64,000 nt of DNA. Source: Ananas comosus (lineage: Eukaryota; Streptophyta; Magnoliopsida; Poales; Bromeliaceae). The notes under the pieces are model-generated. The model did no database searches and was not told the DNA's origin. It was given only the letters and a program-made list of their open reading frames with translations. The translations under genes and the position numbers were made by a program. Each line of letters opens with the position of its first letter. Position 1 is the stretch's first letter. Positions 12,864 through 47,979 of this stretch are shown here, piece after piece. The DNA lies in the NCBI RefSeq assembly GCF_001540865.1, contig NW_017893380.1, positions 1 to 64,000 on the forward strand, written 5' to 3'.

Positions 12864-12897
<34 letters not shown>

Positions 12898-16188: not shown

Positions 16189-18753
16189 TGTAACGTATCG
16201 AAACCCGAAAACGATAATCGAACTTTAATCAAATTGGTTAAAGTGTCGAGAGAAATGTATTGGTGAGTTCCATTTTGCATTCCAACATGTTTGGAAGGGC
16301 AAAAATGAGTTAAAGAGGTATTAGTATGAGTTTGGCATCGATCGGCGCGATATAGAGTCGAATCGGAGCCAAACCTGAAATCTGGAGCATTGTGTACCGG
16401 TACGCCATGATGGCTGTACCGGTACAGCAAGCGACCCGAGCACAGGTTGCTCTCGGGTTTGAGTCTGCGCGAAGGTGTATCGGTACGGGACCCGTGTACC
16501 GGTACACAACCTGCGAAACCGAGCGACCTTGCTCTCGGGTTTGGGCTTCTGCGCAGGCCCGTACCGGTACACAAATCCGTGTACCGGTACACAGGGGCTC
16601 TGGCAGCAGGGATAGGTCTGCTGCAGGATTAAAGTTGAGGAGCCTATATGCAAATGTCGCAACATGATATTTGGCCCACCCCTCTCCCATTTTCACAGCA
16701 AAACCCCTCTCCTCTCCTCTCCCTCTCATTTCCTCTCTTTCTCTCTCTAAAAGCTTGGGCTAGGGTTGGGAAAGAAGAAGAAGAAGCAAGGAGGAGAAGA
16801 AGAAGAGCTTGGAGAGGATCTTGTGGCTCTCCAACAAGGTGGACTTGGGTGAGCTCGTGGCATGGGTGAGTTCTTTTGCTCATAGAACTCTAGGGTTTGG
16901 TTTTAGACCATGGATTTTGGGATTTTGATCCTCTAATTATCCTAGAAACCCTCTAAAGGCATTGGAACACATGGAAACTTGAGTTCTTCATGGTGCTCCC
17001 ATGGTGGATCACTAGGGCACCAAGTGGATGCCCTAGGGATGAGTAGAAAGGCTTTGCGATGGTATTAGAGAACTTCTTGGTAGATTCTAAGCCATTTTTA
17101 GCTTAGGAATGAGATCAATCCAAGAGCAAACCATATAAGGCTTGGTTAGGGTTCAAATTTGGGGCTTTTGCCCTAGAATTTTTCGGGGACAAATTGAACC
17201 CGTAGAAACCTAATTGGGGGTGTCCTAAAGGCGTGGGACAACTCCGTTTGAGGATACAAAAATGTTTAAGTATAGTTCGTGTATAAAGGGGCTAATTTAG
17301 CACTATTTGGGTTTTAGGGCGCAAAGTTCGACGTTCCTAACCTTCGGGAGACATCGTATTCTTCATCCACTACTTCATTAAGGTGGGTGGTGCATTCCAA
17401 GGATACCGGAAATCTCTTTATGTCTAAGTGTCATTTTTATTTGAGCATATGAGTATAATTGAGCATTATGCATAATAGGGTTAAATTGTAAGCTTCTTGT
17501 AGCATGATGTGCATTCAAATGCATGTTAAATGTTTGTAAGTTCGTGCGAATGATATTCCCTATGTATGCATGATCGTGACAAGAACCTAGAAGGGTTAGT
17601 AAACAAAAGTGACACCTTGACATAGATTTAGCAAGTGACATTGAGGAGTCTAGAGGACTTAGAAAACAAGTGTGGTATCAATGACAAAGAACAAGAATAA
17701 GTAGTGTACATGATACTAGTAGAGGTTAGAGAATGCAAGTAAATTGGGTTAATAACATTATGACATAAACACCTTAGAATTAAGGGTCACATGTACATGA
17801 TTCTCCTTGAAGTCAAGGAATGGATTGAACTTGGAATCCTTACAGTTAAGGATTGATCGTACTCACCTAATAGTCCTTGCTCGAGGGCGGTAGCTCCCCC
17901 TCGGGCGATGTGCTCCGGAGTTGTCATCACTGGGTCGTAGCGGTTATCTCCCCAGAGGGCGGTCCCGTCGGGTTGTAGCGGTTATCTCCCCGACAATAGG
18001 GATTTGGGTTGGTGAGTTTGTGAGGGCGAAACCTACGGGCTAGCCATGAGATTGGGTAATGAAAGGTTAATCTTGCATTCATCATGAGCATTCTATCGAG
18101 CATAGTTTTATTTATCGTTCAGGCATATTAGCTGCATTTGTTAGTTGGTTATTATCTATTCTTTCTTCTATTATGCCTGATTAGACCTAGTGGGATAGTC
18201 GGCGTGGTTGGTTGCCGAACCCACTGGAAACTTTGTTGTAGTTCTCACCCCACTATTTCCACAGAGCCGGAACCGAGCGAGCCGGCAGATGATCGCGGTA
18301 AGGGCATCGTGCCCTAAGTAGAGACCGCCCGAGATGGATTTCATTTTGTAGTTGCATACCCTTTACTATCATCTTTTGTATTTGATGATTTTAGTATTAT
18401 GAACTTGTTTTAATGAATGATGTAAAGGATATTTACTTTAAATGTCAAATGTTATATTTTGGGAGAAATGAGATGTAAAAAGAAATGAGCAAGGATGTGA
18501 CAGAACTTGATTATAGTTGGATACATGTATGTGATTTAAATTTAGTTATATTACTTGTATATTGAATGGTTAATTCTTTCACCTTGGCTATTGCTTGCCC
18601 ATGTGCAAGCCATTGTGTATGCTTCCGCTTATGCAAATTTGTACTCTATTGATACTTGTGTTGAGCCTTGGGCGGACGGGGGAAGCTCTGTCCGTTCGGT
18701 GTCTGTTTGACGCTCTCGAACCGGCCAAAAGGGATCGGGCTCGGGGCGTGTCA
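16189..18753 (+). mobile_element. Solo LTR, Ty3 family A
   Basis: A 2,565-bp LTR in plus orientation begins TGTAACGTATCG and ends GGGGCGTGTCA. The flanks GTATA and GTAAA fit a 5-bp target duplication with one change. The sequence matches the LTRs of the family A element at 22.7-33.8 kb, including the palindrome array, the AGGGTTTGG leader-like part, the repeated GGGTTGTAGCGGTTATCTCC phrase near 17935-17990 and the GGGCGGAC...TCTGTCCGTTCGG block near the end. No internal domain remains, so it arose by LTR-LTR recombination. Confidence 0.85.
16394..16590. repeat. GTACCGGTAC palindrome array, solo LTR A
   Basis: Perfect 10-bp palindromes start at 16394, 16416, 16496, 16561 and 16581, and a one-mismatch copy starts at 16477. 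Arms extend the symmetry at single sites: CTGTACCGGTACAG at 16414, GTGTACCGGTACAC at 16494 and 16579. The array lies 205-401 bp from the LTR start. Confidence 0.95.
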
Positions 18754-19148
18754 GTAAACAGAAATCATATAGCTATATAGACAATGGAGTGGGCTAAACT
18801 ATCACAAACAAGTGAACAACAAAAGATCCCTACTACCACCAACCGTTACTCCGATTGGTTAAGTGCCCTGCTCCTAAATATGTCTCTGTTGCAAATCGTG
18901 CACAATTTAGGATATTTAGTTTTGTTAAATGTCTGTATAATTGATAAATAAAGAGGAGATTCAAAGTCCTAGTGCCTCCATTTACCTTTCCTGTACAATT
19001 CATAGGAAAGAGTGTTAGAGTGTATTTTATTACAATTGATTAGACCAGTGGGGTGCTTCTCTCCACAGTAGGATATGTAGGGATTTCTTCCACGTACATC
19101 TCTTATTTGGATTCCAGTAGGTATTACAAGGTTCCCTATAGTATGTCA
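18754..19148. other. Spacer between solo LTR A and the hAT element
   Basis: No ORF or repeat was recognised. It presumably continues the host sequence that the solo LTR split. Confidence 0.4.
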
Positions 19149-22100
19149 CAGTGATTTAAAAAGCGTGCCTCGGGCGCGTGCCTAGGTGCCTAGGCGCTAG
19201 GTAAGGTCGCTTGCGCCTGGGCAGCCCCTAGGCGGGCGACCTTACCCAGGTGCGCACCTCGTGCGCCCAGGCCCACGCCTATACTGAGGCACAAGGCGCG
19301 CTCGAAGCAAAAAAAAAAAAAAGAAGGGGCTGATGGGTTTGGAGTCTTTGGACTTTGGAGTCAACATCCAACTAACCCATTAAGTGTTAAAAAAAAAAAA
19401 AAAAAAAAAAACATGAGAAGCCCTGAAGTTGATCGGACTCCCTGAGGTTTCCGCTCGTCGCTCAAGCAACCATCCGCCATTATCTCTCTCTCTCCTTCTC
19501 GCTAGCTCTCCGCGGCGCCTCCGCTCGACCAAGTATCTCTCTCTTTTTTGCTCTGCAGCCTCCGCGCGATGTGCTTCGCTTGACGGCTCGAGCAAGAATC
19601 TCTCTTTCCTTCTCGCTCTCTTTCTTTCTTGTTCATTGCACATCGCGCCAAGCTGCCAACTCACATCGAGACTCCACTCAGGTGTGATCTCTTCCCCTCT
19701 CACACTATTTTTTAATTTCTCTTCCTCTCTCACTCTACCTCACGTTTTTTTTTTTTTTTTTTTTGCTTGTAAACACTAAACAGAGAGCACTCTCTCTGTT
19801 TTTTTTTTTTAAACAGTAAATACACAACTCTCTCTCTCGCTGTTTTTTTTTTCTTTTTTGTGTGAACAATAAACACTCTTTGTTTTCTTTTTTCTGTAAA
19901 CAGTAAAGATTTTTTTTTTCGTAAACAGTAAAGACTTTGTTTTCTCTATTTTTTTTCCTTTTTTTTAACAGAAAACACACTATTTTTTTCTAACAGAAAA
20001 CACTCTCTTTGCTTAGTTTTTTTTTAAAAAAAAAACAGTAACTTCAATGATGATAAGTGAATAAGTGATTAAAAAATTTTAAGTAATATAGGACCATTTG
20101 TCACTATTTCAACTTGGAAAACGACTAGTAAAAATTGTATTTTTGCTGAATTAGAAATTTTGCTGAAACATTGCTTATTTTTTAGATTTTTTTTCCATAT
20201 TTGTTGAGTTCCAACTTGCTGTTGAATTTCTTGAATGGATTCGGAAGCATCCAAAAAAGACCTGCATGGAAGTTTGTACATTTAGTAGATCAAAAAATAA
20301 AAATGATCTTATATGTAATTTTTGTCAAAAAGTAACAAAAGGAGGAATTTACCGAGCAAAACAGCATATTGTTGGAGGCTTTCGAAATGCAAAAGCGTGC
20401 TCTAGATGTCCACCACATGTGAGGGAGGAAATCAAAGACTTTATGATTAAAAGAATATCGGAGAAGGAGCAAAATAATTTCATACCTGACTTTGAAGATG
20501 TAGATAACTTCAATGACGATGACAAGGAAAATGATGTTGAGGAATTGAACTTTGGAGGAAAAAGAACGCAACGCAAAAGTAGCGGCTGTAGCGTTGGTAG
20601 TAGTAAAAGTGCAAAAAAAAAAACCAAGACAAAAGGGACCATTGGATTTGTATTTCAATTCTAATGCAGAGAAGGTAGTTCAAGATAGAAAGGATGGAAA
20701 AATGAACCAAACTAATACCAACAAAGTTTGTAGGAAGGAGTTAAGACGAAAAGCTTCCAGAGATCTAGCAAAATGGTTTTATGATGCTGGAATACCTTTC
20801 AACGCTGCTACTTATGATAGCTTTACTGTGGCGATCGAATCCATTGGACGATTTGGCATGAAATCACCTTCTATGTATGAATTACGGGTTCCTTTTCTTC
20901 AAAAAGAGGTTCAAGAAATGAAGAATTTATTGAAAGGCTATATGGAGGAATGGGCAAAGACTGGATGTACTATAATGTGCGATGGATGGAAGGACGGGAG
21001 GGAAATGACTCTTATAAACTTTCTTGTAAATTCTCCGATGGGCACTGTGTTCATTGAATCTATTGATGCCTCCAATTACACGAAAACTAGAGAAGAGATG
21101 TTTAAGTTATTGGATAGTATGGTAGAGCGTATCGGGGAGGTCACCATTGCATTGATTTGATACTCGAGGACATTGGAAAAATGCCCGAGGTGCATAGAAC
21201 ATTGAAAAGGGTAACGACATTGAATAGTTATATTTATACCTGCACTGGCCTAGTCAACATGATGAAGCGTTTCACAGGCCAAAGAGAGTTGCTTAGGCCT
21301 GGCATTACAAGATTCGCAACAGCTTTTCTTACCCTTCAACGGCTACATAAGAAAAAGAGCAATTTGAGAAAAATGTTTACATCGGATGATTGGACCAAGA
21401 GCAAATGGGCAAAGGAACAAGCAGGCAAAAGTTGCAGCTAGCATTGTAATGATGCCTACATTTTGGACTAGTATTATTTTTATTCTTAAGATTTTCGGTC
21501 CTCTCGTGGGTGTACTTTGGCTAGTTGATGGTGAGAAAAGGCTAGCAATGGGTTACATTTATGAGGCAATGGATAGAGCGAAGGAAGCAATTGCAAAGTC
21601 CTTTAAAGAGAGAGAGGAGAAATACAGTGAAATATTCAGTATTATTGATAAAAGATAGGAATGCCAACTTCATCGCCCTTTACATGCTGCTGGCCATTTC
21701 TTGAATCCTAAATTCTTTTATTCAAATTCAGAAATCGTTAGAGATGAAGAGATTATGGCAGGTTTATATAAAGCTTTGCAAAAATTGATTCCAAGCGCTC
21801 AAGAACAAGTATGCGATCAACTAAGTGTGTATCGTGAAGCACATGAGCTTTTTGGAACTAATATGGCAATTCGACAAAGGAATACAAAGTCACCAGGTAT
21901 ACAAGTGTGTGGATAAGAAAAAAAATGCAGTCATTTGTATACATTTTTATTAATAGAATATTTGAATGAACAGGGGAGTGGTGGAAATTGTTTGGATCAT
22001 CAACACCAGACTTGCAAAAATTTGCAATTAGGGTTCTTAGCCTCACTTGTAGTGCTTCCGGTTGTGAGCGAAATTGGAGTGTTTTTGAACAAGTTGCAAG

Positions 22101-22684: not shown

Positions 22685-22701
22685 NNNNNNNNNNNNNNNN
22701 N
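22685..22701. other. Assembly gap of 17 N
   Basis: The gap joins the hAT tail to the interior of a family A LTR. It removes the hAT right end, about 1.8 kb of the family A 3' LTR, the target duplication of element A and the 5' part of element E. Confidence 0.99.
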
Positions 22702-23467
22702 TAGAGGATTTCCTCACTTGTAGAGAGATCAAAACCCAAAAAATCTATGGTCTAAACCCAAACCCTAAACTCATTTTTGTATAAGGACTCACCTTTGCCC
22801 AAGCTCCACCAAAGCCTACTTGTTGGAGAGCTTCTAGGACCACCAAAGCCACCAAAGTCCACTTCTCCAAGCTCTTCTCCACCTTCTCCAAGCTCTAGGG
22901 CTTGCTTTCTAGAGAGAGAAAGAGAGGAAAATGAGAAAGGGGGATGTGTGTGGCTGTGGGAGGGAGAGAGAGAGGTGTTGGGGAGTTAACATGTTGCTAC
23001 AATTGCAACTAGGCCCCCCACAAAGTCTTATTTGCATCAGACTTCGAAATGCTGTCTGGGGCCTCTTGTACCGGTACAAGGGTTCTTGTACCGGTACAAG
23101 GCCAGGCAGTAAGCCAAACCCGAGAGCTGCCTCTCGGGTGCGCAGGGTTTGTACCGGTACAAGGAGTCTTGTACCGGTACAAGGTCTGGACTGCACCAAA
23201 CCGAGAGCTACTAAGCTCTGGTCGCTGCTTGTACCGGTACAACCATCACCCTTGTACCGGTACAAGACGTCCAGAATGCAGTTTTGACTTCGATTCAGCT
23301 CTACTTCGCGCCGGTTGACGCCAAAACCATTTTAACACTTCTCTAACTCATTTTTCGCCCCTTTCAAACTTGTCGGGCAGCAAGAGGAACTTGTCCATCG
23401 CTTTCCTTCGACACTTTAACCAATTTGGTTAAAGTTCGAATATCGTTTTCGGGTTTAGATACGTTAC
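22702..23467 (-). repeat. 3' LTR of element A, truncated
   Basis: This is the first 766 bp of the LTR in minus orientation (starts TGTAACGTATC at 23467), cut by the N gap. It matches 33010-33769 closely, apart from scattered one-base deletions in the latter. Confidence 0.85.
23068..23263. repeat. GTACCGGTAC palindrome array, 3' LTR A
   Basis: Six perfect copies start at 23068, 23088, 23151, 23171, 23231 and 23254. Most are extended to CTTGTACCGGTACAAG. The array lies 204-399 bp from the LTR start at 23467. Confidence 0.95.
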
Positions 23468-23480
23468 ATTCTCCAACCCT
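23468..23480 (-). promoter_or_regulatory. Polypurine tract of element A
   Basis: On the minus strand AAGGGTTGGAGAA immediately precedes the 3' LTR start TGTAACG. This is the expected plus-strand primer position for reverse transcription. Confidence 0.7.
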
Positions 23481-23538
23481 TATATTTAGTTTCGTCTACA
23501 AAACTAGCTTAATTTAACTTGAATCTCATATCTCAGTT

Positions 23539-26142
23539 TGTCACGCCCCAGACGGCATCACCCGAAAACGGTACCAATTTGGTCCGGTTCGAGGGCGGCG
23601 GGCGCGACCGCCGAACGGACGGAGTTTCCCCTGTCCGCCCAAGACTAAGCAACAGATTGTGTACAACAAGTCCCCAGGAAAACAACTTGCATTCATACAC
23701 AATCAACAACGAAACGAGAGCACAAACAGGGTTATAACCCACTAGAGCAAGCGATACAAGTAAAACCATACAAGTATACAAAAGAGAGAAACTTAGCTAA
23801 TTGAGACATAATTGAAATATTAAACTTCTTTCGATATCATTTAAAGCTTTAAGCATTTAATACAACTTGCAATCTTTTTTCAAAATGTAAATACATCACA
23901 ACCTCTTCAAAACCTCACCCTATACATCATCTACTCTCAAAATGTAAGCAAAAGTACAGGGTAGAGAACTAATGCAAGTGGGAAGGGTAAAGCTATCAAC
24001 CAAACCGCTAGGGCGCTAAGCCCTTGCCACGATCCTCCCGCTCAGTCGGGGCGCTCGAGCTAGTACCTGCAACGAGGGTGTGAGAACTACGAATAGTTCC
24101 CAGTGGTTTCGGCCGCCGACTCCGCCGATCTACCCACTAGGTCTTAAGCAGGCATAGAGAGAGATATACATATATATATATGTGCAATATATATAAAACT
24201 AAATTGAACTGAAAGCAGGTATGGAAAACAGGTATATCAAGCTATGTCTCAATCTGATATCATGGATGCATGAACAATAAATAAAGCTGGGTAAGTAAGC
24301 AACTATAAACATCTACAACAGCTATCATAGTAAGCTATAAAACATGTTACTAGGAAAGCAAATAAGCTGATATGAACAATGAGTAGCTACTATGAACATC
24401 AATCGTGGGTAAGACTCAATGGGTAACCCAATCTCCAAGTGAACACAAGATTCACAAGCAAGGCTCACATATCAACCTCCGAGGGATGCCTAACTGGAGT
24501 ATCCCCGAGTACGCCTGCGGATAACAAGCGGCTATCTGAGCAGCAAGCAGGCTGCCTCTCTAGTGACCAAACTCCGGAGCGCACAACTTGAGGAGAGCGA
24601 CCCCACCAAGCGCAGACAGGCAATGTGAGCATGATCAACTCACGAGCAACAACAACCCTTTGAGGGTAATATCAGCATAGATCAATAAGTTCTTGTACCC
24701 AATCCCATAGTGTCTCAACTACACTAATAAGATCATCTCAAGTAAACATCAAACATATGCCACTCAGTATAGTTTTCTAACTAGGTGCCACTCGTCATTT
24801 AGACACATCAACGATGTTACATCATACTAATTCTTTAGCAACATAAGCATTAACCATCTCATATAGGGTCTAAGTTTTCATCAAATAATCATCATGCATA
24901 CTAGATCATGAACCAACCAAGCAAGATATATTGAGCAACTAGCATGCAAGTATAAGCAACAATGATCATTTTCTAACCCTATATGTATATGCACAATATG
25001 CGAATAGATCAAAATTAGACTTAGACATAGAAGGTGGCCCGATGACTTCGGGATGGCACTCCCCCACCTTAGGTGATGCCGAAAACACTCCGAGACGCGT
25101 TCTCGTGCTAGTCTTGTCGCCGCTTAATTTTCGTTGGGTTAGCTTTAACCCTATAGCACTTCAAATGGCGATATCTTCACGCCCACTCGTCGGATCGACG
25201 AACCGTCTTCGCCTACGCGTTTATAAGCATAAGAATTAGGTTTCTAACCCCTCAAAAGAGATCAAACCCTCATATCTTCAAAAATCCCAAAATCAAGCCC
25301 TAGGTTTAGCACCCATAGGAAGCAATGGTTTCTAGCTTCATTGTGAGCTAAATCCATCATCTCTAAACCCAAAAGGTTCCATTTGAACCATTAAAACCAA
25401 CCAAAAACCCTTAAGCCCTAGAAATCACACATTAGGGTTGAGACTTACCTCTAGGGTTTGCTCCAAAGCAAGCTCTAGCTTGAAAACGTGGAGGAGGAGG
25501 GCTTCTTCTCCTTCTCCTTGATCTTCTCCTTCCTTTTCTTCCTCCCCTTCTTTTTCCTTTTCTCCTTCTTCTTCTCTATTTCGGTTAGAGAGAGAGAGGC
25601 TAGAGAGAGAGAGAGAGGCTGTGAGAGTGAGAGGGAAAGGGGCTGAGAGAGAGGGTTAACAACTCTCTATTGTAACAATATCCAAAAGAGCCCCTCTATT
25701 TTCTGTTTTTGCAACTTAACCCGCTGTTCGTGCGCCCTTGTACCGGTACACGGGACCTTGTACCGGTACAAGGTCTGGGTGACAGCAAAAATAGAGCGCA
25801 AACCCGAGAGCTCGGGCCTCGGTTTCGCAAAGCTTGTACCGGTACAAGCCCCTTGTACCGGTACAACGCCTGAAGCCGAGAGTTACGCAGCCTGCTGCGA
25901 CGGCTGTACCGGTACAGCCATCACCCTTGTACCGGTACAGCAGCTCCAGAATGCTGTTTTAACCTTGTTTCGGTTCCACTTCGCGCCGATCGATGTCAAA
26001 ACCATTCCAACACCTTTGGAACTCATTTTTGTTCTTCCAAACTTGTTGGAATAGCGAATGGAACTTGTCCAAATCGTTTAATCGCCCACTTTGGCCCATT
26101 TGGCCAAAGTTAGCCAACGTCGTCGAATTTCGATATCTTACA
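23539..26142 (-). mobile_element. Solo LTR, Ty3 family B, inserted in element A
   Basis: A 2,604-bp LTR on the minus strand, starting TGTAAGATATCG at 26142 and ending GGGGCGTGACA at 23539, is flanked by perfect 5-bp target duplications CAGTT (23534-23538 and 26143-26147). It is related to family A: same GGCGGACAGGGGAAACTC...GTCCGTTCGGCGG end block and similar length. It is too different to be its partner LTR. Removing it with one CAGTT restores a continuous pol end and 3' tail of element A. Confidence 0.9.
25740..25938. repeat. GTACCGGTAC palindrome array, solo LTR B
   Basis: Six perfect copies start at 25740, 25760, 25836, 25855, 25906 and 25929. The flanking arms vary (CTTG/CAAG, CTG/CAG). 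The array lies 204-402 bp from the LTR start at 26142, the same offset as in family A. Confidence 0.95.
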
Positions 26143-29100
26143 CAGTTCAACTCATCGAAGAGATGAGGGTAATGTTCCCTCATTGCGCTCTCGAGCTCCC
26201 AAGTAGCTTCCCGGTCGTCGTGATTACACCAACGAATTTTAACATACGGAATCTCGCGATTTCGTAGTTTTCTTACTTCTCGGTCGATGATGTATGCCGG
26301 GAACTCCTCATAGGTCATGTCCTCTTGAATCTCGGACGGTTCAAACGAGAGAACATGATCGGGGTCATGAACATACTTGCGGAGATTCGATACATAGAAC
26401 ACGTCGTGTACTCCCGCAAGCCTCGGTGGTAATGCTATCTTGTACGCCACCGTGCCGACCCGCTCTAGTATCTCGAACGGTCCAAGATACCGGGGACTTA
26501 GCTTCCCACGGATTCCAAACCGTTTGATCCCTCGCATCGGCGAAATCTTTAGGAACACGTGGTTCCCAACGGCAAACTCTATATCTTTCCTTCGTTTGTT
26601 GGCATAACTCTTTTGCCTAGATTGCGCCGTAGCAAGTCGTTGGCGTGCAAGACGAACCTTCTCCTCCGCCTCCCGCACTACATCGGGGCCAAGTGCCGCC
26701 CTTTCGCCCACATCGCTCCAATGAATTGGGGAGCGACATTTCTTTCCATAAAGGGCCTCGAATGGCGGCATCGCGATACTTTCTTGATAACTGTTATTGT
26801 ACGCGAACTCCGCCAGCGGAAGATGATAATGCCAATTGCCCTTATAATCCAGCACACACGCTCGAAGCATATCCTCGAGTATTTGTATTGTCCTCTCCGA
26901 TTGACCATCACTTTGAGGATGAAATGCCGTTGCTAAAGTCGAGCCGCGTGCCCAAAGCCTCCTGTAGGCTCCTCCAAAAGTGAGAGGTGAAACTCGGGTC
27001 CCGATCCGACACGATAGACACCGGAACCCCATGAAGTCTCACGATCTCGTCGATATACACTTGAGCCAATTTGTCCCCCGACCAAGTAATGTGGATTGGC
27101 AGGAAATGCGCCGACTTCGTCAACCGGTCTACTATTACCCAAATGGCATCATGTCCATCTTGAGATCGGGGCAACCCGGTCATGAAGTCCATCGCGATAT
27201 TCTCCTATTTCCAAACCGGTATAGGGAGACTTTGTAACTTCCCCGCCGGGAACCTCCGCTCAGCCTTGACTTGTTGGCAAGTAAGGCACTGCGCAACACA
27301 CTCCCCAATGTCCTTTTTCATGCCCGGCCACCAATAGTGTAACTTCAAATCTTGATACATTTTGGTGCCGCCCGGGTGTATACTATAAGGGGGTTGGTGC
27401 GCCTCTTGCATGATCGCCCTGCGGATGTCCTTATTCTTAGGCACACACCAACGGTTTCTAAACCGGAGTGCGCCGTCGGTCCCAATGCCAAAATCATCGG
27501 CACTACCGCTCTCAACTTCCCCACGCACCTTTTGTAGATATTCATCTGAAGCTTGCAACTCTTTAATCTTCTCCAATAGCGTCGGTTGAACAACCAACGC
27601 AGCAAGTGTCGCCGGTACTCCCGGTGCTACCACCTCCAATCCAAGCCGTTGCATCTCCTTTTGTAGTAATGGTTGGGGTGTAATTGCCGAAGCCAAATTT
27701 TCCCCCGATTTTCTACTAAGTGCATCGGCTACGACATTCGCCTTCCCGGGGTGGTATAGAATAGTAACATCATAGTCTTTCAACAATTCTAACCACCGCC
27801 GCTGTCACATATTCAACTCCTTTTGGGTGAACAGATACTTAAGGCTTTTGTGATCCATATAGATCTCACAATGTTCCCCATATAGGTAATGCCTCCATAG
27901 TTTTAGCGCGAAAATAACCGCCGCTAGCTCAAGATCGTGAATCGGGTAGTTCTTCTCATAAGTCTTCAGTTGGCGTGAAGCATAAGCTATAACCCGCCCG
28001 TTTTGCATCAAGACACACCCGAGTCCCACGTAGGAAGCATCACCATATACCACAAAGGTCTCCCCCGGCGTCGGTAGAGCAAGCACCGGGGTCGTGGTCA
28101 ACCTTTTCTTTAACTCCTCAAAGCTTCGCTCGCATTCGGGGCTCCAAACATACTTCACCCCTTTGTGTGTAAGGCGCGTTAGTGGAGTAGTTATTTTAGC
28201 GAACCCCTCCACGAACCGCCGATAGTAGCCCGCAAGTCCAAGAAAACTACGGACCTCCGATACGCTCGTCGGGCGAGGCCAATCTTTAATTGCCTCCACT
28301 TTCTTCGGATCTACCGAAATACCATCTCCGGAAATAACGTGGCCCAAGAAAGTGACCTCCGATAGCCAAAAGTCACATTTCTTTAGCTTGACATACAACT
28401 TTTCTTTTCGGAGTATTTCCAACACTGTCCTCAAGTGCTCCTCGTGTTCTTCCTCGGTCCGAGAATATACCAATACATCGTCAATGAATACCACGACGCA
28501 CCGGTCCAATAGCTGACGGAAGACTCTCTATTCATTAAGTCCATGAACGCCGCCGGGGCGTTAGTAAGCCCAAACGGCATCACCGTGAACTCGTAATGGC
28601 CATACCGCGTACGGTACGCCGTCTTGTGCACATCTTCGGGCCGTATCTTCAACTGATGATACCCCGATTGAAGATCAATCTTTGAATATACCCTTGACCC
28701 CTGCAACTGGTCGAATAAGTCATCAATCCTCGGCAACGGGTACTTATTCTTCACTGTGACCTTGTTCAACTCGCGGTAATCCACGCAGAGTCGAAGTGTG
28801 CCGTCCTTCTTCTTAACGAATAGCACCGGAGCTCCCCAAGGTGACACACTAGGCCGTACAAAGCCTTTGTCGAGCAAGTCTTGCAATTGCGCCTTAAGCT
28901 CCTTTAGCTCCGCCGGTGCCATTCTATATGGGTCCTTCGAGATCGGCGCCGCCCCCGGGACCAAGTCAATAACGAACTCGATCTCCCTGTCCGGTGGCAA
29001 TCCCGGTAACTCCGCCGGAAATACATCCAGAAATTCGCACACCACCCGAATGCCTCCCAAATCCGGGTGCTCTTTTTGGGTTTCCACCATTGTCGCCAAG

Positions 29101-29654
29101 TAGGCCACACAACCACCTTTTATCATTTTCCTCGCCCGTGCCGCCGACACGGTCGCCGCGAAAAGCGAGCTTTTAGCTGCCTGATACACTAGCTCCTCTC
29201 GATTAGGCTCGCGAAACGTGATCACCTTACTTTCGCAATCTATCACGGCATAATACTTGGAGAGCCAGTTGGTCCCCAAGATCACGTCGAAACCCCACAT
29301 TCGGTTTAGCACCAACAGATCAATCGGCATGACCCAGTCACCTATCTGCACTGGGCACGCTACACATTCCTCGTGAACGTGAAAGGTATGCTTGACCGAA
29401 TTTACCGTCCAATAGTCATAATGGTGCACGATCTTGATGCCATGAGCCCTAGCGAATGATGCATCTATGAATGAATGCGATGCACCTGTGTCGAATAAAG
29501 CTCTAGCTCTGGTGCCTCTTATTGAAATAATACCTGCCACAATGTCGTCGGGAACAGGAATCGGCTCCTCCTGCACCTGAGTGGAAAAAACCCGCCCACT
29601 CGGTGCCTTCGATGCCTTCGGCTGACGCGATGAGGATGAGCGCCCAGCCGACAT
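26143..29654 (-). pseudogene. Element A pol: protease, RT, RNase H, integrase, chromodomain
   Basis: Protease motif [12 protein letters not shown] lies near 29490-29455. RT runs from about 29050 through [20 protein letters not shown] to the catalytic FIDD near 28480. RNase H follows ([12 protein letters not shown], then TQKELN near 27810). Then come the integrase HHCC finger ([19 protein letters not shown] near 27400-27270), the DDE core ([33 protein letters not shown]) and a C-terminal chromodomain-like segment (EVRKLRNREIPYVKIRWCNH) ending HYPHLFDELN. Frame breaks occur near 28515, 27805, 27205 and 26990. The natural stop codon was split by the family B solo LTR, so the last frame now runs about 60 codons into that LTR, to 25959. 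Confidence 0.85.
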
Positions 29655-30901
29655 CGCCGGTGGTGATCCCGCCTGCTGTCTCGGGGTATAAGGAACTTAT
29701 GCCGAGGTCGGTGCAGATGAACCCCAGCTCGGGCACTCCCGAGACATGTGGCCCGGTTGGCCACACTTGAAGCACTTTCCCTCGCGCTGCGGCCACACCG
29801 GCGGTTGATGGTTACCGCCGCAAATAACGGAATGGGAGGGTCTCCAACTCCTCGACTGCTGTCGGGGATACCGGGGGGGTTTCTTTGCACTCGGCCAGCC
29901 CCCGGTGCCACCCGCCGCCCGCTTCTTGCTCTTATCCTTTGCCTCAGCTGCGGCTTCGCGTTCCTCACGCTCGTGGGCATAGCCTTGCTCCGCCCACAGT
30001 GCTCGATCAAAGGCCTCGGCGAAGGTCGGGAGCTTGAGGATTTGCACAGCCCGATGAATCCCTGGCCGAAGCCCACGCACAACCAATCAGCCCGGTCCCG
30101 ATCATCACGGACTATATCCGGGACACAGTCGATAATGTGGGAGAACTCCCGCTCGTACTCCCCCACCGATCGGTCGCCCTGCTTCAACTTGCGGAATTTT
30201 TCTTACAACTTCCGCTTCTCCGTGTTGGGAAAGTAGTTGGCGAATAACGCCCTCTTAAACTCCTCCCAGAGCATAGGCGGGAGGTCAGAAGGTCGATCCC
30301 GCCTCACCCGCTTCTACCACACCTTGGCCGCCTTCTCGAGACAGTGTGTGGCGAGAGGTACTTTGTCTTTCTTCAAGGAATAGATGTCCTCGAAGAGCAT
30401 CTCCATTGAGTCGACCCACACCTCGACTACCGCCGGATCCATCTTCTCCCCGTCGAAGATAGGTGGGTTGAACTTCTTGAACAAAACGAGAGCCTCTAAC
30501 GCACGCTCCCGCTCCGCCTCTACCGCCGCACTATCGGGATTTGAGGTTCCCGATCCGGCCGGTATCGCCGTCACTGGTACGGCTGCGACCGGCGTCGCCG
30601 CCGCTGCTACTCCCTCGGCCACCGTCGGCACCACAACGGGGGGCGCAGGGGGTTCGACCCCCGCCTGAGTCGCCGTCGTCTGCTGCCGCTCCAACGCCTC
30701 TTGGAGCCTTTGAATTTGCTCCCCTTGGCGCTGGACCGACTCCGCCTGTTGCCGCACCACGCCAATGAGCGTGGCCAACTGCTCCCGAAACTCCCCGTCG
30801 CCTCCCGCTTCGGGCTGCACGGGAGCCGCACTCGGCTCCTCGGCCATCGACCTCGTCCGCGGTCGTCCACGAGGCAACTTAGGTCGCCCACGAGGCGGCA
30901 T
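29655..30901 (-). pseudogene. Element A gag
   Basis: It starts at an ATG at 30901 with a basic N-terminus (MPPRGRPKLPRGRPR), followed by a Gln/Glu-rich coiled-coil-like stretch and the retrotransposon gag core (PPIFDGEKMDPAVVEVWVDS). A stop after AAKVW near 30315 and further shifts near 30190 and 30085 break the frame. The nucleocapsid CCHC knuckle CFKCGQPGHMSREC lies near 29775-29730. Gag forms the particle that packages element RNA. Confidence 0.8.
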
Positions 30902-31221
30902 CGCTTCCTGAAATGAAGCAATTCACGTTAGTTGCTTAGACAGTATACTCGATTGTACCCAAACCGGCGAAAGCATACAAGTGCATTTATTCTCCTCCCT
31001 ATGCATCATGTCGTCGGCCGCCGATCACAACATAAAGGTAAGAAAACAAATAACAACTTTAAGTTAGTCTCTAACCACCTTAGAGACTTATAAGCATTAA
31101 CCCAATCATAAGCTTTCGCTATACTTTGTTCAACGTCACTCACGTTTCCTAGATCCTTAAGGTCTTTCCATTCCTAAGGGTCTCTAGGTCCATCCTATGC
31201 TTTCACCTTTGGCTCTTTTAC

Positions 31222-31233: not shown

Positions 31234-31240
31234 TCTTATC

Positions 31241-33769
31241 TGTCACGCCCCGAACCCGATCCTATTTGGCCAGTTCGAGAGCGTGATACAGACGCCGAAC
31301 GGACAGAGCCTCCCCTGTCCGCCCAAGGCTCAACAACAGGTACAAATAGAGTATAGAAATTTCGTAAGCGAAAGCATACACAATGGCTTGCACGAGGGCA
31401 AGCAATAGCCAAGAGTGAAAGTAAACAACTACACGTAAGGAATCGATTACATTTTTCATCATTTATTTTCTTTTACATCACAAGATCTCAAAATATCATT
31501 CTCGCATTTAAATATAAAGGTCTTTCACAACATACATGTTCTTTTCTTTAACAACTAAATCATCAAGCACAAAAGATGACATATAACAAAAGGGGTATGC
31601 AACTAAATAGATAAATGTCCCGGGCGGTCTCTACCTAGGGCGCGATGCCCTTACCGCGATCGTCTGCCGGCTCGCTGGGTCCCGGCTCTGTGGAAATAGG
31701 GGTGTGAGAACTACAACAAAGTTCCCAGTGGCTTCGGCAACCAACCACGCCGACTATCCCACTAGGTCTAATCAGGCATAATAGAATAAAGGAAAGTAAG
31801 TAACCAACTAGCAAATGCACTAATATGCCTGAACAATATAAAATGATATGCACAATATAATGCTCATGATGAATGCAAGGTCATAGTGTCAATACCCAAT
31901 CTCTTGGCTAACCCGTAGGTTTCGCCCTCAAGAAACTCACCAACTCAAAATCCCAATAATCGGGGAGATACCCGCGACAACCCGATGGGACCGTCCTCTG
32001 GGGAGATACCCGCTACAACCCAGTGATGTCGATTCCGGAGCACATCGCCGGAGGGGGAGCTACCACAACCTCGAGCAAGTACTAAAGTGAGTACGATCAA
32101 TCCTACATTCGAGGATTCCAAGTTCAATCCATTCCTTAACTTTAAGGAAGACTATGCTCAAATGACTCTTAACACTAAGGTTGAATGTCATAATATCTCG
32201 GTCGTTCTTGTTCTTACATTCTTTTCTATCACCAATGTCATATACACTATCAAGTTCTTGTACTCATGCCACACTTGTTTACTAAGTGTTCTATATTCTT
32301 GTTCTCATGATCAATGCCACACTTGTTTACTAAAGTGTTTAGACTCGTCGATGTCACTTGCTAAATCTATGTCAAAGTGTTACTTTTCGTTACTAACCCT
32401 TCTAGGTTCTTGTCACAATCATGCATACATAGGATCATCATTCTCACATTCTTACATACATTTAACATGCATTGAATTTATATTAGACTATATAAAAGAA
32501 CTCACAATTAACCCTATTATGCAGGATGCTCAAAACGCATAAATGCTCAAAGTATGACACTTAGACATAGGGAGATTTTCGATGTCCGTGGAATACACCC
32601 ACCTTAGAGGGTTACAGGATGCTTCGGTGAATTTCTTGAATTTTGAAGCCCTAATCCGCGTGCTGCGGCTATCTTACGGAAAACGACGTTTTTTCAATAA
32701 CTTTGCATACACTCGTCGCATTGTCGAACGAGCGTTCCAACGCGTTTAAAATCCTCAATTATGTTTCTACATGATCAAAATAGATCAAAACCTAACTTGG
32801 GCAAAACCCCTCTTTGGGATGCCCTAACATGCCATTTTTGCATTTTTCTAGATTGATCCCATTACTAAGCAAGAAAGCTTAGAATCACTTGGGAAGCTCT
32901 CTAATAAGGTTCTAAACTTCTAGAAACCATCTCTAGGGCATCTACTTTGAGCCTAGTGATCCACCATGAGAGGGGCCCAAGAATTTCATGTTTTTCATGG
33001 AGTCATGGTCCGTAGAGGATTTCCTCACTTGTAGAGAAGATCAAACCCAAAAACTATGGTCTAACCCAAACCCTAAACTCATTTTTGTATTAAGGACTCA
33101 CCTTTGCCCAAGCTCCCACAAAGCCCTACTTGTTGGAGAGCTTTAGGCCACCAAAGCACCAAAGTCCACTTCCTCCAAGCTCTTCTCCACCTTCTCAAGC
33201 TTTAGGGCTTGCTTTCTAGAGAGAGAAAGAGAGGAAAATGAGAAAGGGGGATGTGTGTGGCTGTGGGGAGAGAGAGAGAGAGGTGTTGGGGAGTAACATG
33301 TTGCTACAATTGCAACTAGGCCCCCACAAAGTCTTATTGCATCAGACTTCGAAATGCTGTCTGGGGCTCTTGTACCGGTACAAGGGTTCTTGTACCGGTA
33401 CAAGGCCAGGCAGTAAGCCAAACCCGAGAGCTGCCTCTCGGTGCGCAGGGTTTGTACCGTACAAGAGTCTTGTACCGGTACAAGTCTGGACTGCACCAAA
33501 CCGAGAGCTACTAAGCTCTGGTCGCTGCTTGTACCGGTACAAACCATCACCCTTGTACCGGTACAAGAGTCCAGAGATGCAGTTTTGACTTCGATTCAGC
33601 TCTACTTCGCGCCGTCGTTGACGCCAAAACCATTTTAACACTTCTCTAACTCATTTTTCGCCCCTTTCAACTTGTCGGGCAGCAAGAGGAACTTGTCCAT
33701 CGCTTTCCTTCGACACTTTAACCATTTGGTTAAAGTTCGAATATCGTTTTCGGGTTTCGATACGTTACA
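31241..33769 (-). repeat. 5' LTR of element A
   Basis: It is 2,529 bp, starting TGTAACGTATCG at 33769 and ending GGGGCGTGACA at 31241. It closely matches the solo LTR at 16.2-18.8 kb over its 3' half and the truncated 3' LTR at 22.7-23.5 kb over its 5' part. Compared with the latter it shows many single-base losses. Confidence 0.85.
33372..33563. repeat. GTACCGGTAC palindrome array, 5' LTR A
   Basis: Perfect copies start at 33372, 33392, 33472, 33531 and 33554. One copy near 33453 lacks a single G (GTACCGTAC). The array lies 206-397 bp from the LTR start. Confidence 0.95.
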
Positions 33770-35253: not shown

Positions 35254-35700
35254 ACTACAGAAAATGATTTATAGGTGACAGTAAAAATTTGTCACTAAAA
35301 ATAAAAAATTTGTCAAATAGTTTTAGTGACGATAAATCGTCTCTATAAGTTGTCATGGTAGGTCCCGTGGCAATAGATTTTGTCACGGAAAAAAAAATAT
35401 TGTCACGGAAAATAGTATTAATGACAAGTTAATTTTGTCACTAAATATTACTTATTTTCACCAAATAATATTTACGAAATGGTTGAACATTAAAAATAGT
35501 AATCTTAGGTGAACAACATATGCCATCACTAATAGTTAGTGACATCATTATCTGTCACTAAATTTACATTTATGACGATGATTATTCACTACACACTAAT
35601 ATTTAGTGATAATAAAGCTTGTTACAGAATATTGCATTTATAACGATAATATTCATCACCGACATATTGTCACTAATATTAGTGACAACAAAACCATTAT
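35254..35700. repeat. CACTA subterminal repeat cluster (copy 1)
   Basis: More than a dozen variants of GTCACTAA and TTAGTGAC alternate in both orientations. The counterpart in copy 2 is at 53899-54350. Confidence 0.75.
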
Positions 35701-39314: not shown

Positions 39315-40447
39315 TGAAAGTTTGAGGAGCCACAGTCTATCTAGATTGTATCTATCACCTAGAGCGTGGTGAATAGGTGAACGCCAAAAAACCACAAATC
39401 TCGATGCAATAAAAAATAAATGCGGAAAATAAAAGCACACCGAGATTTACGTGGGAAAACTCCAACTTGGAGAAAAACCCACGGACCGAACACGCGAAAA
39501 AATAATTCACTAGAGAAAGATTACAAGTGATTACGACTCCACGGACTCAACTCTCTTAACCTCCTATGAATCTTCGCGCTACCCCTCCGGGTTGTCCACG
39601 CCCTCATGTTCGAGTCCAACGCCTCCACTCCGAATCCACGAAGCTTCAATCACGCCAATCCACGAGCCCACTCGAATCCATGAGCCCACGATCGAATCCA
39701 CGAACCGCCGTCAAATACGCCGAATCCACGACGCCACCATGACGAATATCATGAATATGGTGATCCTTCGCTTTGGAGTATTGTAGAAAACCAGGGAATA
39801 GAACTCAAGCTAAGCGGAGATCAAATCGACATATTAATATCAAATTTCAATATCTCGATTTGATCTAAAAGAGGCTTTTGTAGAAAATAGGTTTTGATGA
39901 AATCGAGCCTCTAGGGTTTCTCAATATGTATTCTTATGATGCTTGATCAGTTAGAGAAGCCCAATAGCTTATTTATAGACTTTAGAATCAATTGGAGTCG
40001 GATTAGAAAGATTTCACGATTTTACACTGTGTACCGGTACACTTTAGGCTGTCACCGGTTACACAATGACGGAACGAAAAACCTGACGAAACAGTGAAAT
40101 CGGTTACATCCTTGATGGTCGTACCGGTACACATTTTGTACCGGTACACTTCTGATGCTGTACCGGTACACTTTGCAAATTTTCGCCGTTTCGGATTTTG
40201 CAAAGTTCCGATGCACTTTCTAATCTGTTAGACAATGATATTATGATTCTAATGTCTACAACTAAGTATGAATCACCACAATCATGAATTAACACTTTAC
40301 CTAGACATCGTGATTCACGGTGTGAGTTATTGTGAGTTATTTTCCAACTTCTTCGAAATCTTGAATTCTTCGATCTTCGACAACACGCACTGATTCTTCA
40401 AGACTCCGACTCACTTCACGAAACTTGCCAACACACAAGACTTAACA
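39315..40447 (-). repeat. 3' LTR of the Ty1 gag-only element
   Basis: It is 1,133 bp on the minus strand, from TGTTAAGTC at 40447 to CAAACTTTCA at 39315. It contains a cluster of CGAATCCACGA-type short repeats (39600-39735) that is shared with the partial 5' LTR at 43740-43905. Confidence 0.8.
40031..40169. repeat. GTACCGGTAC palindrome array, Ty1 LTR
   Basis: Four perfect copies start at 40031, 40121, 40138 and 40160. Degenerate copies are at about 40051 (CACCGGTTAC) and 40098 (ATCGGTTAC). The array lies 278-416 bp from the LTR start at 40447. The decamer is the same as in Ty3 families A and B, although the LTRs are otherwise unrelated. Confidence 0.95.
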
Positions 40448-43424: not shown

Positions 43425-43448
43425 TAGATAACAATTTATCTAGATCCC

Positions 43449-43460
43449 GCTCTGATACCA
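43449..43460 (-). promoter_or_regulatory. Primer-binding site of the Ty1 element
   Basis: TGGTATCAGAGC on the minus strand, two bases after the 5' LTR end, is complementary to initiator tRNA-Met. Confidence 0.85.
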
Positions 43461-43462
43461 AT

Positions 43463-44002: not shown

Positions 44003-44003
44003 N

Positions 44004-44455
44004 AATTTTCTGACACTGTGCATTTTCTGTTAAAATAACAGCCTCGATTCACACAGAAAATTCAAAATCTTCTGTTCTCGCTCCGATTTCCGCACGAGCC
44101 GTTCCCGACTTATATTTTACTTCTATAAGTCCAATAAAAATAGTATCTCACACTATTTTTATTTATACCCTTATTTTAAAATCCGGTATGCTACACGGTC
44201 CCTCCCTGCCAGGGACCGGTTCCATCACGCAACCCCGCTGCGCCCAGCCAGGGGAACCGGTCTCTCACCTGCAGAGACCGGTCCCCAAGAGCAACATCAG
44301 CCCAATGATGCAGTTTGCCTCATTTACTCTTGCGGACTCAACTCCAAGGCACTTTTTGTGCTTTGGACATTCTCAACTCCGACAAAGGGTATACTTTCGA
44401 CAATTAGTCGATCCAGGATGAAGTACAATCCTCATATTTCGAGAATTCACTTCCT
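44004..44455. other. Unassigned LTR-like fragment with ACCGGT sites
   Basis: The fragment follows a single N. It holds GGGACCGGTTCC near 44211, GGAACCGGTCTC near 44253 and AGAGACCGGTCCCC near 44272. This is the spacing style of the family D array, so it is probably the start region of another LTR, truncated on both sides. Confidence 0.4.
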
Positions 44456-45461: not shown

Positions 45462-47979
45462 TGTAGCACACTGGACCTTTGCAAATTGCGAGGTTCGAGT
45501 GTTCGATTTGTATTTCGAACTTTTCCACACTTGGTGGAGGGCCGTCGATGGTATACCGGCCTAAAAGTTCGATCTCGAGAGTTTTGGCAGAGTCCTGAGA
45601 GTTTTTACTCTCGGGGACCGGTCCCTGATAGGAGAGACCGGTCCCCTAGTGAACAGTGCGCAAGCAGCCGGCGAGGCAACCGGTCCCTGGCTGTCGAGAC
45701 CGGTCCCCGAGCGCGTCTGCGCGGGGAGAGACCGGTCCCGCGCAGGGAGAGACCGGTTCCCGAACGTTGGATTTTCGGGGGCAGGCTGAGAGACCGGTCC
45801 CAGGTCGGGGAGACCGGTCCCTCTGGGCGAAAACTGCCCAGACCGGGCTGATGTAAATTTGAGTTTTTGAGGGGCCTAACCGGATTTTGTTACCTTAGAG
45901 GCTATAGGCAGCCTCTCCTCCCCTCTGACTCTCATTTTCTCTCCCTCACACTCTTCCTACACTTCTAGAGAGAGAAAGGGAAGGAGAAGAAGGAGAAGAA
46001 GAGGAGAAGGAGCTTGCTTGGAGGCCTTGGAGCACCACCTTCTTCCTCATTTCTTACCTTTGGAGGCTTGGAGCTTGCTTTTGGAGCTTTGTGGTGGATC
46101 AATCTTCAACCCTTGAAGATTTTGAGCTTGGTTTGGAGCATCCTAGAGGTAGGTGGCAAGGTTCCTTCCTCTAGATTTTAGTTTTGGAGCTTTTTGCTTG
46201 TCTAAACCCTAGATTTTGGATTTTAGGGTTAGATATGGGGATTCTTGATTTGAGGCTTCTTGATCTCATTTGAATGGTTTGGAACCTTTATATAGGTTAG
46301 ATTGGGAGACCTCTACCTTCCATTTGAGGATTAAAATAGGGTTTTTCACTTGAGGTGAGTTTTCTCCAACCCTAGCTTGAGAAGCTTAGTGTTTGAGCTA
46401 TTTGCTCTTCGTTTCGTTTGGGTGACCCTATTTTTGATGTTTCTAGGGTACTAGGAAGCTTGTGGATACCTTCGTTCGGCGAAACGAAGAATTCGATTTT
46501 GGTGGGTTTGACTTCATGAAAATGGGGCAAAATGGTCCCTTTGCCTTCTAGACTTTTGTAAAGTATTTTTGAATGCAAATTCATACTAAACATGATTTAT
46601 ATGAATTTTAAAACACTTAACATGCATGCCTCATGTATCGTAAAATTTGTACTCCATATAGTAGAGCTATATGTGTAGATTGCATGCATTGTGGATACTG
46701 CTTGGTTTTGCAAGTTGAGAACATGTCTCCATGCTAGAATTGAGTGAACTATGCATCATGAACATATTAATGCCATGCTTGGGACTCGTTGAACAAAAGT
46801 GTCATAAAGGGGCACTTGGAATTAGTAAACTATGAAAATGCAACTTAGAGACATAATGATAGGCCATTGTACATCTGCTATATATTCCATGTTAGAGACA
46901 TGATGACATAGAGATAGGCCTTTGGGACATTCGATACATTCCTTGTTATTAGACCTGAGGACTTGGTACTTGCGACAGATCGTTTGACTACTTGCCATTG
47001 TGCTCATTCGCACATGCTTGTAAGGGTCGCTCCCTACAAGCCGGCACTCTGGAGATAGCCATCGCGATTCATATTCGCCGTGCGGGATTGGGCGCCGAAG
47101 TGGATTGCCGTGGGACAGGCTCATTCCTAGGGTGGGGATGATGACTACCACGGGGCCATTAGGCTCGGCACCGGCCAGACAGCCTACGGGTGGGTCTCAG
47201 GGCCATAGATAGCCTTCGGGTGGGTCTCTTCAGATTTGACTTTGAGCATTCATTATGACATGTGGACAGATGACGACTTAGTGTACTACTTAGACATGGA
47301 CTAGAATAGTAAACAACGGAACTTTACTATTTCGCATTGTGAACATTATGATAGTTGGAGACTTTTACTTCATGCATAGTTGCTTCATACTTATGCTAAT
47401 TATGCTAAGTAGAGATATCATGTTGTAGTAAATTACATTTTTACTTACCTTTCGCTTTTCTACTTTTATAGTCACTGACATCTTTTGTAGTTTTGGGCCT
47501 TGTGGCGCATTCACTGAAGTCAGTAATTGCCCACTGGGAACTATTTTTAATAGTTCTCACGCCCCTGTTTTATGGTTTACTTTTCAGAGCCTTCGGCACC
47601 GGCGGAGGCACGGGATCGCGGCAAGGGGATCGCTTAGCTAGCTAGCGAGGAGCGGTACTTTGCCTAGGTGGTTTACTCTTTCTTTTTGTAGTTGAGAGAG
47701 TGAGAGGTTTTGTCTCCAAGTATAGAGACCACCTATGCATCTACCTATAGCACTTGTATCTGGGATTTCCTTGTATCACTTTATGTTTTATTTAGTGGAT
47801 TTACAGTTTTATCCTTATCCCTTGTTGTAGCATTTAGACATTTATTATGCTCTGATACTCCTAGATGTCTTTTATTATTGCTTTTATTATTGTTGTTTTT
47901 AGACGCCTTATACGTTTTAGACGTATGGCGGGTCAGGGCACGCGCCGGGCGGGCTTCCGCTGGGTCCCGGGGCGTGACA
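45462..47979 (+). mobile_element. Solo LTR, Ty3 family D
   Basis: A 2,518-bp LTR in plus orientation, starting TGTAGCACACTGG and ending CCCGGGGCGTGACA, has perfect 5-bp target duplications GTTTA at 45457-45461 and 47980-47984. Removing it restores the colinear match with the second family C LTR at 52650. Its layout parallels family A (palindrome array, CT-rich stretch, leader-like AGGGTTTAG region). Confidence 0.9.
45616..45819. repeat. GACCGGTC palindrome array, solo LTR D
   Basis: Perfect 8-bp palindromes start at 45616, 45636, 45698, 45730, 45792 and 45812. Variants are at about 45678 (AACCGGTC) and 45751 (GACCGGTTCC). The best site extends to GGGGACCGGTCCCT. The array lies 155-358 bp from the LTR start. 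The core is the same as in families A and B but the arms differ. Confidence 0.95.

Follow-up and report, generated by a model that had tools for sequence, protein, structure and literature searches.

Paired palindromic ACCGGT boxes in the long terminal repeats of Ty3 and Ty1 retrotransposons at a pineapple locus: putative sites for a dimeric host factor

Why do the long terminal repeats (LTRs) of different retrotransposons at one locus of pineapple (Ananas comosus) carry clusters of short palindromes centred on ACCGGT? The locus is a stretch of 64,000 nt (positions 1 to 64,000 of contig NW_017893380.1, assembly GCF_001540865.1), and the results below refer to this single 64-kb window. An earlier sequence-only reading had reported six such arrays at a fixed position in the LTRs of unrelated families. 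It had also proposed that the symmetry itself is used, for example by a dimeric DNA-binding factor. Our analysis confirmed the observation in part and partly supports its interpretation. The arrays discussed here lie in both LTRs of a Ty3 element (B; copies at 23 kb and 33 kb), in two LTRs homologous to them (A and B'), in an LTR of a Ty1 element (T) and in a further LTR (D).

All six arrays were present where they had been reported. Their repeat unit, outside D, is GTACCGGTAC, that is, more than the bare ACCGGT. The window contains 26 perfect copies of GTACCGGTAC; over 30 first-order Markov shuffles the average was 0.03, and no shuffle gave more than 1. All 26 copies are within five LTR arrays (5 in A, 6 in B at 23 kb, 6 in B', 5 in B at 33 kb and 4 in T), and none occurs elsewhere in the window. 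ACCGGT is found 50 times, as opposed to 7.3 expected from shuffling of the same kind. Perfect palindromes of at least 14 nt number 30, including 19 boxes, while 15 shuffles gave 4.9 on average and 10 at most. A second box, GAGACCGGTCCC, occurs six times (five times in array D and once at 44274) and never in the shuffled sequences. These counts rule out chance or low complexity as the origin of the arrays, which are real and far above chance.

Three box pairs make up each array of the A/B/B' type. Array A (16394..16590, plus strand) consists of 16394+16416, 16477+16496 and 16561+16581, where the box at 16477 is the variant GTATCGGTAC. The remaining three are on the minus strand. The array in the 3' LTR of element B (23068..23263) contains 23068+23088, 23151+23171 and 23231+23254, and array B' (25740..25938) contains 25740+25760, 25836+25855 and 25906+25929. 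In the array of the 5' LTR of B (33372..33564) the box near 33452 is damaged by a 1-bp deletion. Array T (40031..40169, minus strand) is made up of 40031+40052 (variant) and 40121+40138+40160. Inverted repeats of the form CCGAG...CTCGG were also seen between the pairs of A, B and B' (16435-16470, 16510-16550, 23105-23215 and 25800-25890); an example in B is CCCGAGAGGCAGCTCTCGGG. On their CTCTCGG side these repeats are invariant.

Array D (45614..45821, plus strand) is of a different type. It has four pairs of GAGACCGGTCCC-type boxes, separated by gaps of 20, 42, 20, 32, 21, 41 and 20 bp. Among its eight ACCGGT sites, GACCGGTC is complete in six, an A opposite a C is retained in six, and a 12-bp perfect palindrome is present in just one. 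The D box differs from GTACCGGTAC, keeps a mismatch and is mostly an imperfect palindrome. The claim that all six arrays consist of perfect ACCGGT palindromes therefore fails for D. Two more D-type arrays, both on the plus strand, had been overlooked. One, E44 (44193..44285), has boxes at 44193 (broken), 44212, 44253 and 44274 with gaps of 19, 41 and 21 bp. The other, E50 (50222..50314), has two boxes decayed to ACTGGT (50222 and 50243) and two intact ACCGGT boxes (50283 and 50303), with gaps of 21, 40 and 20 bp. The degenerate sites at 16477, around 33452, 50222 and 50243 had likewise escaped notice, as had the pairing of the boxes. The minus strand of 44003-44205 carries an LTR-start-like sequence, TGTAGCATACCGG, directly after the half box GGGACCG; this sequence continues as far as a single N (44003), adjoining the 5' LTR of the Ty1 element. 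Here a D-type box was apparently interrupted by an insertion.

How independent are these arrays of each other? A, B and B' had been taken for unrelated families, yet the alignment of A and B spans the whole LTR at 72% identity, and all three align at 69-73% across the array region. Since these LTRs are homologous, the common position of their arrays reflects descent. Counted from the LTR start, ACCGGT first appears at base 208 in A, 208 in B (23 kb) and 207 in B', but at 156 in D and at 281 in T, so that a fixed LTR position over unrelated families is not upheld. The statement that the LTRs do not otherwise align around the sites is correct for T, which has only short, box-overlapping matches with A, B (23 kb) and B' and no alignment matches with the B (33 kb) and D LTRs. 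The D LTR shares only short blocks with A, B and B': one with A at 74% identity (A 519-624, D 451-555, partly CT/GA-rich), another near base 2040-2110 and a few others with B and B'. It also ends in GGGGCGTGACA, as do A, B and B'. These likenesses suggest that D is a distant relative of A/B/B'. Judged by sequence, the arrays form three groups: A/B/B', the D type (D, E44 and E50) and T.

Descent raises the question of whether the boxes have simply been carried along. In aligned LTRs A, B (23 kb) and B' we compared the 60 core columns with the spacers in the array span. Invariant columns amount to 59/60 in the cores and to 40% in the array spacers. Core substitutions number 1/60, 1/60 and 0/60, compared with 98/345, 119/337 and 98/335 (28-35%) outside. 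When the site mask was shifted circularly, none of the 429 shifts matched the observed conservation of the cores. The cores are under strong constraint; the region as a whole is not.

We then considered how far the symmetry extends. Arms were compared at 21 perfect-core sites of four LTRs (A, B at 23 kb, B' and T; 23 sites minus two variant cores), leaving out the near-duplicate B copy at 33 kb and D. Going outward from the core, arm positions 1 to 4 pair in 18, 15, 9 and 8 of the 21 sites, so that the arms are not self-complementary throughout, as had been claimed. At position 2, the 15 paired sites exceed the mean of 8.0 obtained by shuffling right arms across elements (p 0.0009), but pairing to depth 2 is not distinguished from a within-element shuffle (p 0.22). 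Position 3 (9/21, mean 7.0, p 0.21) and position 4 alone (p 0.14) are at background; combined to depth 4, 50 of 84 positions pair (p 0.003 across elements, 0.09 within). Pairing above the across-element but not the within-element shuffles points to family-specific arm types. B (23 kb) has CTT on the left in 5/6 sites and AAG on the right in 5/6, while T has an invariant left arm (GT in 4/4 perfect cores) and a variable right one. Two-sided changes between A and B are seen at homologous sites 2, 4 and 6; changes that keep the symmetry do exist, although they are few. Given the within-element shuffle, the varying right arm of T and the mismatch kept in D, the signal for the arm covariation proposed earlier is weak. 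Beyond the 10-bp core the arms are symmetric for no more than one or two bases, which agrees better with a dyad of some 12-14 bp than with covarying arms. By position 3 of the arms no excess of pairing is left, and the dyad has the size of a protein footprint.

The boxes are also spaced in a characteristic manner. Gaps between neighbouring boxes are 22, 61, 19, 65 and 20 bp in A; 20, 63, 20, 60 and 23 in B (23 kb); 20, 60, 20, 59 and 24 in B (33 kb); 20, 76, 19, 51 and 23 in B'; and 21, 69, 17 and 22 in T. The gaps are alternately short and long in A, B, B', D, E44 and E50, and degenerate sites (16477, ~33452, 44193, 50222 and 50243) fill out the pair scheme. Spacing within pairs averages 20.4 bp (SD 1.4, range 17-23, n=19), or about two helix turns. 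The 19 short gaps are those of A, B (23 kb), B', T, D and E44 together with one of E50; three gaps in B (33 kb) (20, 20 and 24) and one of 21 in the decayed E50 pair are outside this sample. The pattern suggests that boxes are paired 17-24 bp apart in each array. As to the position relative to the promoter, the TATA box of T, TATAAATA, starts 53 bp past the last core, and in A a weak TATATG is found 54 bp past the last core. The boxes are probably situated near the transcription start of the LTRs.

Taken together, strongly constrained cores, limited dyads and pairing make the putative dimeric DNA-binding factor the best reading among those considered earlier. Specifically, we find it probable, judging from sequence features, that the arrays are U3 enhancers of LTR retrotransposons in which paired boxes, as transcription-factor sites, cooperate in binding a putative dimeric host factor. 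Each 10-14 bp dyad would be occupied by a DNA-binding protein of the host, which most likely acts as a dimer and reads the half-site TACCG (GACCG in the D type). With boxes 20-21 bp apart, two dimers would face almost the same side of the helix, bind cooperatively and drive the promoter just downstream; activation, rather than repression, is what we would expect. One factor could serve both the Ty3 chromovirus LTRs (A, B and B') and the Ty1 Sirevirus (T). Ty3 and Ty1 elements would have acquired the box either independently or through the exchange of short pieces, and D might respond to a sister factor or to one of shifted specificity. As regards known plant factors, the site of SBP-box (SPL) proteins has a GTAC core within TNCGTACAA. 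In the boxes of A, B, B' and T, GTAC occurs twice per box, preceded by G rather than C, and it is absent from the D boxes. A more far-reaching version of this scheme is tentative. It supposes a cis-code shared within one plant genome: a Ty1 Sirevirus and Ty3 chromoviruses would both exploit one dimeric host factor as parasites, the same 10-bp dyad and two-turn spacing would have evolved independently, and a sister group would have moved its whole array to GACCGGTC. If a host factor does drive both, elements as different as these may have come under a common switch in large plant genomes. A perfect 10-bp core with 59/60 invariant columns, common to two superfamilies, offers a short and testable bait for such a factor.

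Several observations weigh against this proposal. Random placement yields as many short gaps with a probability of 0.02-0.17 per array; moreover, the 17-24 bp bin was picked post hoc, and A, B and B' do not count as independent cases. T combines a pair with a triple, so pairs are not exclusive. The 11 longer gaps show no significant helical phasing (R 0.48, p ~0.08), and no TATA consensus was found at the matching place in the scanned LTRs of B (23 kb), B' and D. Finally, GACCGGTC clusters are not special to LTRs: among IMG/VR (viral contigs), where at least 120 stretches have paired GACCGGTC, 17 of 120 stretches have at least four within 250 bp. Because cores cluster in IMG/VR stretches too, short-core clusters are not unique to these LTRs. 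Paired GTACCGGTAC was found there in six stretches, three of which (L067, L068 and L070) have at least four cores within 250 bp; the GTACCGGTAC repeats at 4222-4406 of L070 and 1222-1572 of L067 are inside open reading frames, with VPVPRTGT repeats in L070. TTGTACCGGTACAA matched 66 IMG/VR stretches, 65 of them once and one twice, and none of the 66 contains four GTACCGGTAC. Clusters of the short cores thus occur elsewhere in nature as well, and the distinguishing features here are the placement in LTRs, the fixed cores and the sharing between elements. Separately, a GC-rich IMG/VR contig (L144, 8150-8700) has a dense cluster of GACCGGTCGG-type repeats with 20 GACCGGTC in the locus.

Could the symmetry instead act in RNA? 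The U3 copy at the 3' end of the genomic RNA might fold into hairpins for dimerisation or packaging, or it might yield silencing small RNAs. The sense arrays do fold more stably than their dinucleotide shuffles (z -8.5 for A, -12.8 for B at 23 kb, -7.7 for B', -6.5 for T and -3.5 for D), and A and B are still about four standard deviations more stable than expected when the sites are kept and the spacers shuffled. In maize, moreover, small RNAs accumulate over Sirevirus palindrome clusters (Bousios 2016, via PMC10760457). However, any set of palindromes folds, and the arrays fold because palindromes are present; the antisense strands fold as well (z -5.6 to -12.4). Spacers contribute about one standard deviation or less in B' and T, and D is 1.4 standard deviations less stable than its spacer-shuffled versions. 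The arm pairing that stops after one or two bases and the A-C mismatch in six of eight D sites also argue against hairpins, which leaves this explanation unlikely.

The arrays might also be a platform for silencing or anti-silencing, that is, islands rich in CCGG that the methylation machinery reads or to which an anti-silencing protein encoded by the element binds. Arrays A, B, B' and D are indeed GC islands (0.55-0.69, compared with 0.42-0.43 in the remaining LTR), and the decay of E50 is C-to-T, as expected for methylated CCGG. Array T, with a GC content of 0.45 against 0.42, is not clearly such an island, and its observed/expected CpG ratio (1.24) is close to that of the rest of the LTR (1.28); without its boxes, the B array is CpG-poor (0.44-0.46). 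CG dinucleotides are often kept outside the cores too (14/25, 15/25, 14/19, 11/19 and 15/22 in five comparisons, the cores having 6/7 or 6/6). Furthermore, if the factor were supplied in trans by a single element, this would not account for the same box in Ty3 and Ty1. We regard this possibility as quite improbable.

We assign an equally small chance to a purely mutational origin, in which template switching during reverse transcription corrects imperfect palindromes and copies boxes along the LTR without any need for selection. The likeness of arms within an element (CTT and AAG each in 5/6 sites of B at 23 kb, GT in 4/4 of T) would follow from it, and the array-wide box change in D fits concerted change. 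Nevertheless, such a process leaves unexplained the 59/60 fixed core columns despite 28-35% divergence between the LTRs in the rest of the region, as well as the 20-bp pair spacing in three sets of LTRs. Plain descent of a single functionless ancestral array in all families agrees with the homology of A, B and B' (69-73%) and with the short blocks and GGGGCGTGACA end of D, but it is very improbable, as array spacers have dropped to 40% invariance and cores have not, and the similarity of T to A, B (23 kb) and B' is confined to short stretches that overlap boxes. A preference of insertion for palindromic targets was discarded, since the work in question (PMC6911290), as far as its accessible text goes, concerns a weak palindrome preference at insertion sites and not arrays.

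The assignment of the array-bearing LTRs to elements deserves closer description. Element B lies on the minus strand. Its 5' LTR (31241..33769) is followed by the primer binding site TGGTATCAGAGC, and its 3' LTR can be followed from 23468 as far as a run of N (22701-22685); 33013-33769 and 22702-23468 of the two LTRs are 95.7% identical. Between the LTR copies 33323-33769 and 23020-23468 there are nine substitutions and 11 gap runs, eight of which are single bases absent from the 33-kb copy. These differences may reflect errors of long-read assembly, in which case the box near 33452 may not really be broken. The coding region (25959..30922, minus strand) is split into separate open frames for reverse transcriptase, RNase H, an integrase zinc finger, an SH3 domain and a chromodomain. 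Pfam matches are PF00078, PF17919, PF17917, PF17921, PF24626 and PF00385, and PF17921, PF24626 and PF00385 occur in this order, placing the chromodomain after the integrase. The frame at 30314-30922 has no Pfam match and is taken as gag by position only. Among the best 120 of 7783 matches to a piece of the integrase, a pineapple protein is the closest named one, with 73% identity over 92%. By its domains element B is classified as a Ty3 chromovirus, presumably of the Tekay-like sublineage. B' (23539..26142, minus strand) is a solo LTR within element B, with both copies of the target duplication AACTG and the LTR ends read. LTR A (16189..18753, plus strand) starts with TGTAACG, ends with GGGGCGTGTCA and is assigned to the Ty3 type by its homology to B, which extends over 2.6 kb. 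It is probably a solo LTR; its flanks, GTATA and GTAAA, are imperfect if they represent a target duplication.

Element T has a 3' LTR of 1133 bp (39315..40447, minus strand) with three polypurine tracts, AAAGGGGGAGA, upstream (40841, 40751 and 40459, minus strand). It also has the primer binding site TATCAGAGC at 43457 and the polyC-rich signal CACCCCCCTCTAGGTG at 43519, which reads CACCACGCTCTAGGTG in the 3' LTR copy. Repeated polypurine tracts, TATCAGAGC and a polyC signal are Sirevirus marks (PMC2829016), and on these three features T is classified as a Sirevirus-like Ty1 element. By itself TATCAGAGC is weak evidence, as it also adjoins Ty3 LTRs (31230 and 51413). The gag of T, the only part scanned, matches PF14223. 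The 3' LTR has four perfect boxes and one variant, ACCGGT is absent from the internal part, and the 5' LTR is cut. D (45462..47979, plus strand) is a solo LTR of 2518 bp with the 5-bp target duplication GTTTA. It sits inside a repeat, an uninterrupted copy of which is at 51648-53898. We considered a family F LTR (~51424-53898) as a control, but the repeat match stops at 53898, beyond which is another repeat, and the first part of the LTR seems to be missing, making it uninformative.

The window contains further repeats. A tandem repeat at 8943-11158 has a period of 1040 bp and copies 99.8% identical, and 11721-13736 contains a 1-kb unit twice (86%) with smaller repeats inside. The pair 35254-38634 and 53900-56422 is 92-94% identical in pieces, and its first member includes a 22-bp perfect palindrome, TTGTCACTAATATTAGTGACAA, at 35667. 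Open frames at 20549-21160 (plus strand) and 812-2347 (minus strand) have a DUF659 domain and a plant mobile domain and are probably DNA-transposon or domesticated transposon genes.

Is such an array new? The sequence-only reading knew of no described system of this kind, but palindromic repeated boxes (RM boxes) in Sirevirus LTRs have been published (Bousios et al. 2010, PMC2829016). They were reported for 13 Sireviruses, with a CGG-CCG core in 12, at 200-400 bp into the LTR and before the TATA box. The kind of array is therefore already known. In the titles and abstract starts of the open-access papers searched, there is no report of GTACCGGTAC in retrotransposons, of its pairing or of its presence in Ty3 chromoviruses; no comparable palindrome array in Ty3 LTRs was found there. 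In this open-access literature GTACCGGTAC is present in 40 papers, none of them on retrotransposons to judge by title and start of abstract, and TTGTACCGGTACAA in no paper. Table 3 of PMC2829016 does not include the GTACCGGTAC box, and pair spacing is not mentioned in the accessible part of that paper.

Like RM boxes, the boxes described here are multicopy palindromes in the upper half of the LTR with CGG/CCG triplets, and in T they are upstream of TATA. With regard to the 200-400 bp start (PMC2829016), T (281) and A/B/B' (207-208) fall within the range and D (156) is just outside. A downstream TATA is present in T (TATAAATA), replaced by the weak TATATG in A and not found in B (23 kb), B' and D. 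Other features differ (PMC2829016). Half-sites are reversed in RM boxes, whereas here ACCG and CGGT overlap as CCGG instead of forming CGG...CCG. The CGG-CCG core signature is accordingly lacking, although CGG...CCG does occur between the boxes of a pair. RM boxes number at least eight per element, and T has five. The RM motif was called Sirevirus-specific in comparison with classic Ty1 elements, while our boxes are also in non-Sirevirus Ty3 LTRs, namely those of B, with its chromodomain, and the homologous A and B'. What may be new is that a Ty3 chromovirus and a Ty1 Sirevirus within one genome share the same box.

Other plant elements offer partial parallels. The maize Sirevirus palindrome clusters with CACCGGACNNNGTCCGGTG (Bousios 2016, via PMC10760457), a sequence reported for maize Copia and also Helitrons, share with our arrays CCGG palindromes in the LTR cis-region and strong predicted RNA structure. 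In contrast, CACCGGACNNNGTCCGGTG is longer, has an internal spacer and belongs to maize Ty1 elements, and the small-RNA support is for the maize clusters (PMC10760457). The BII boxes of Tnt1 are likewise short boxes of a plant LTR promoter, said to bind defence-induced host factors (PMC3316501), as is, in being a short box in such a promoter, the symmetric box I (cited in PMC2829016). The BII box is a different one, and paired dyads are not described in the accessible text of PMC3316501. ONSEN has a heat-responsive element bound by HSFA2 (PMC3907296) and resembles our case in its symmetric sites in a plant LTR promoter and an oligomeric host factor, the factor here being putative. Its sites are nTTCnnGAAn bound by HSF trimers, and its promoter is without CG and CHG, of which our boxes are built (PMC3907296). 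This is paradoxical, as the conserved box contains CCGG, a methylation target. A factor preferring or tolerating methylated DNA would resolve the paradox.

Half-sites correspond as well. In Table 3 of PMC2829016, CGGTC/GACCG is listed for Osr10, Osr8 and Vitis, as in D, and CGGTA/TACCG for Inga, as in A, B and T. The TACCG/GACCG pair thus recurs in Sirevirus boxes of other monocots and of eudicots (PMC2829016) and, if the proposed binding is true, one conserved family of plant factors may drive large parts of plant genomes.

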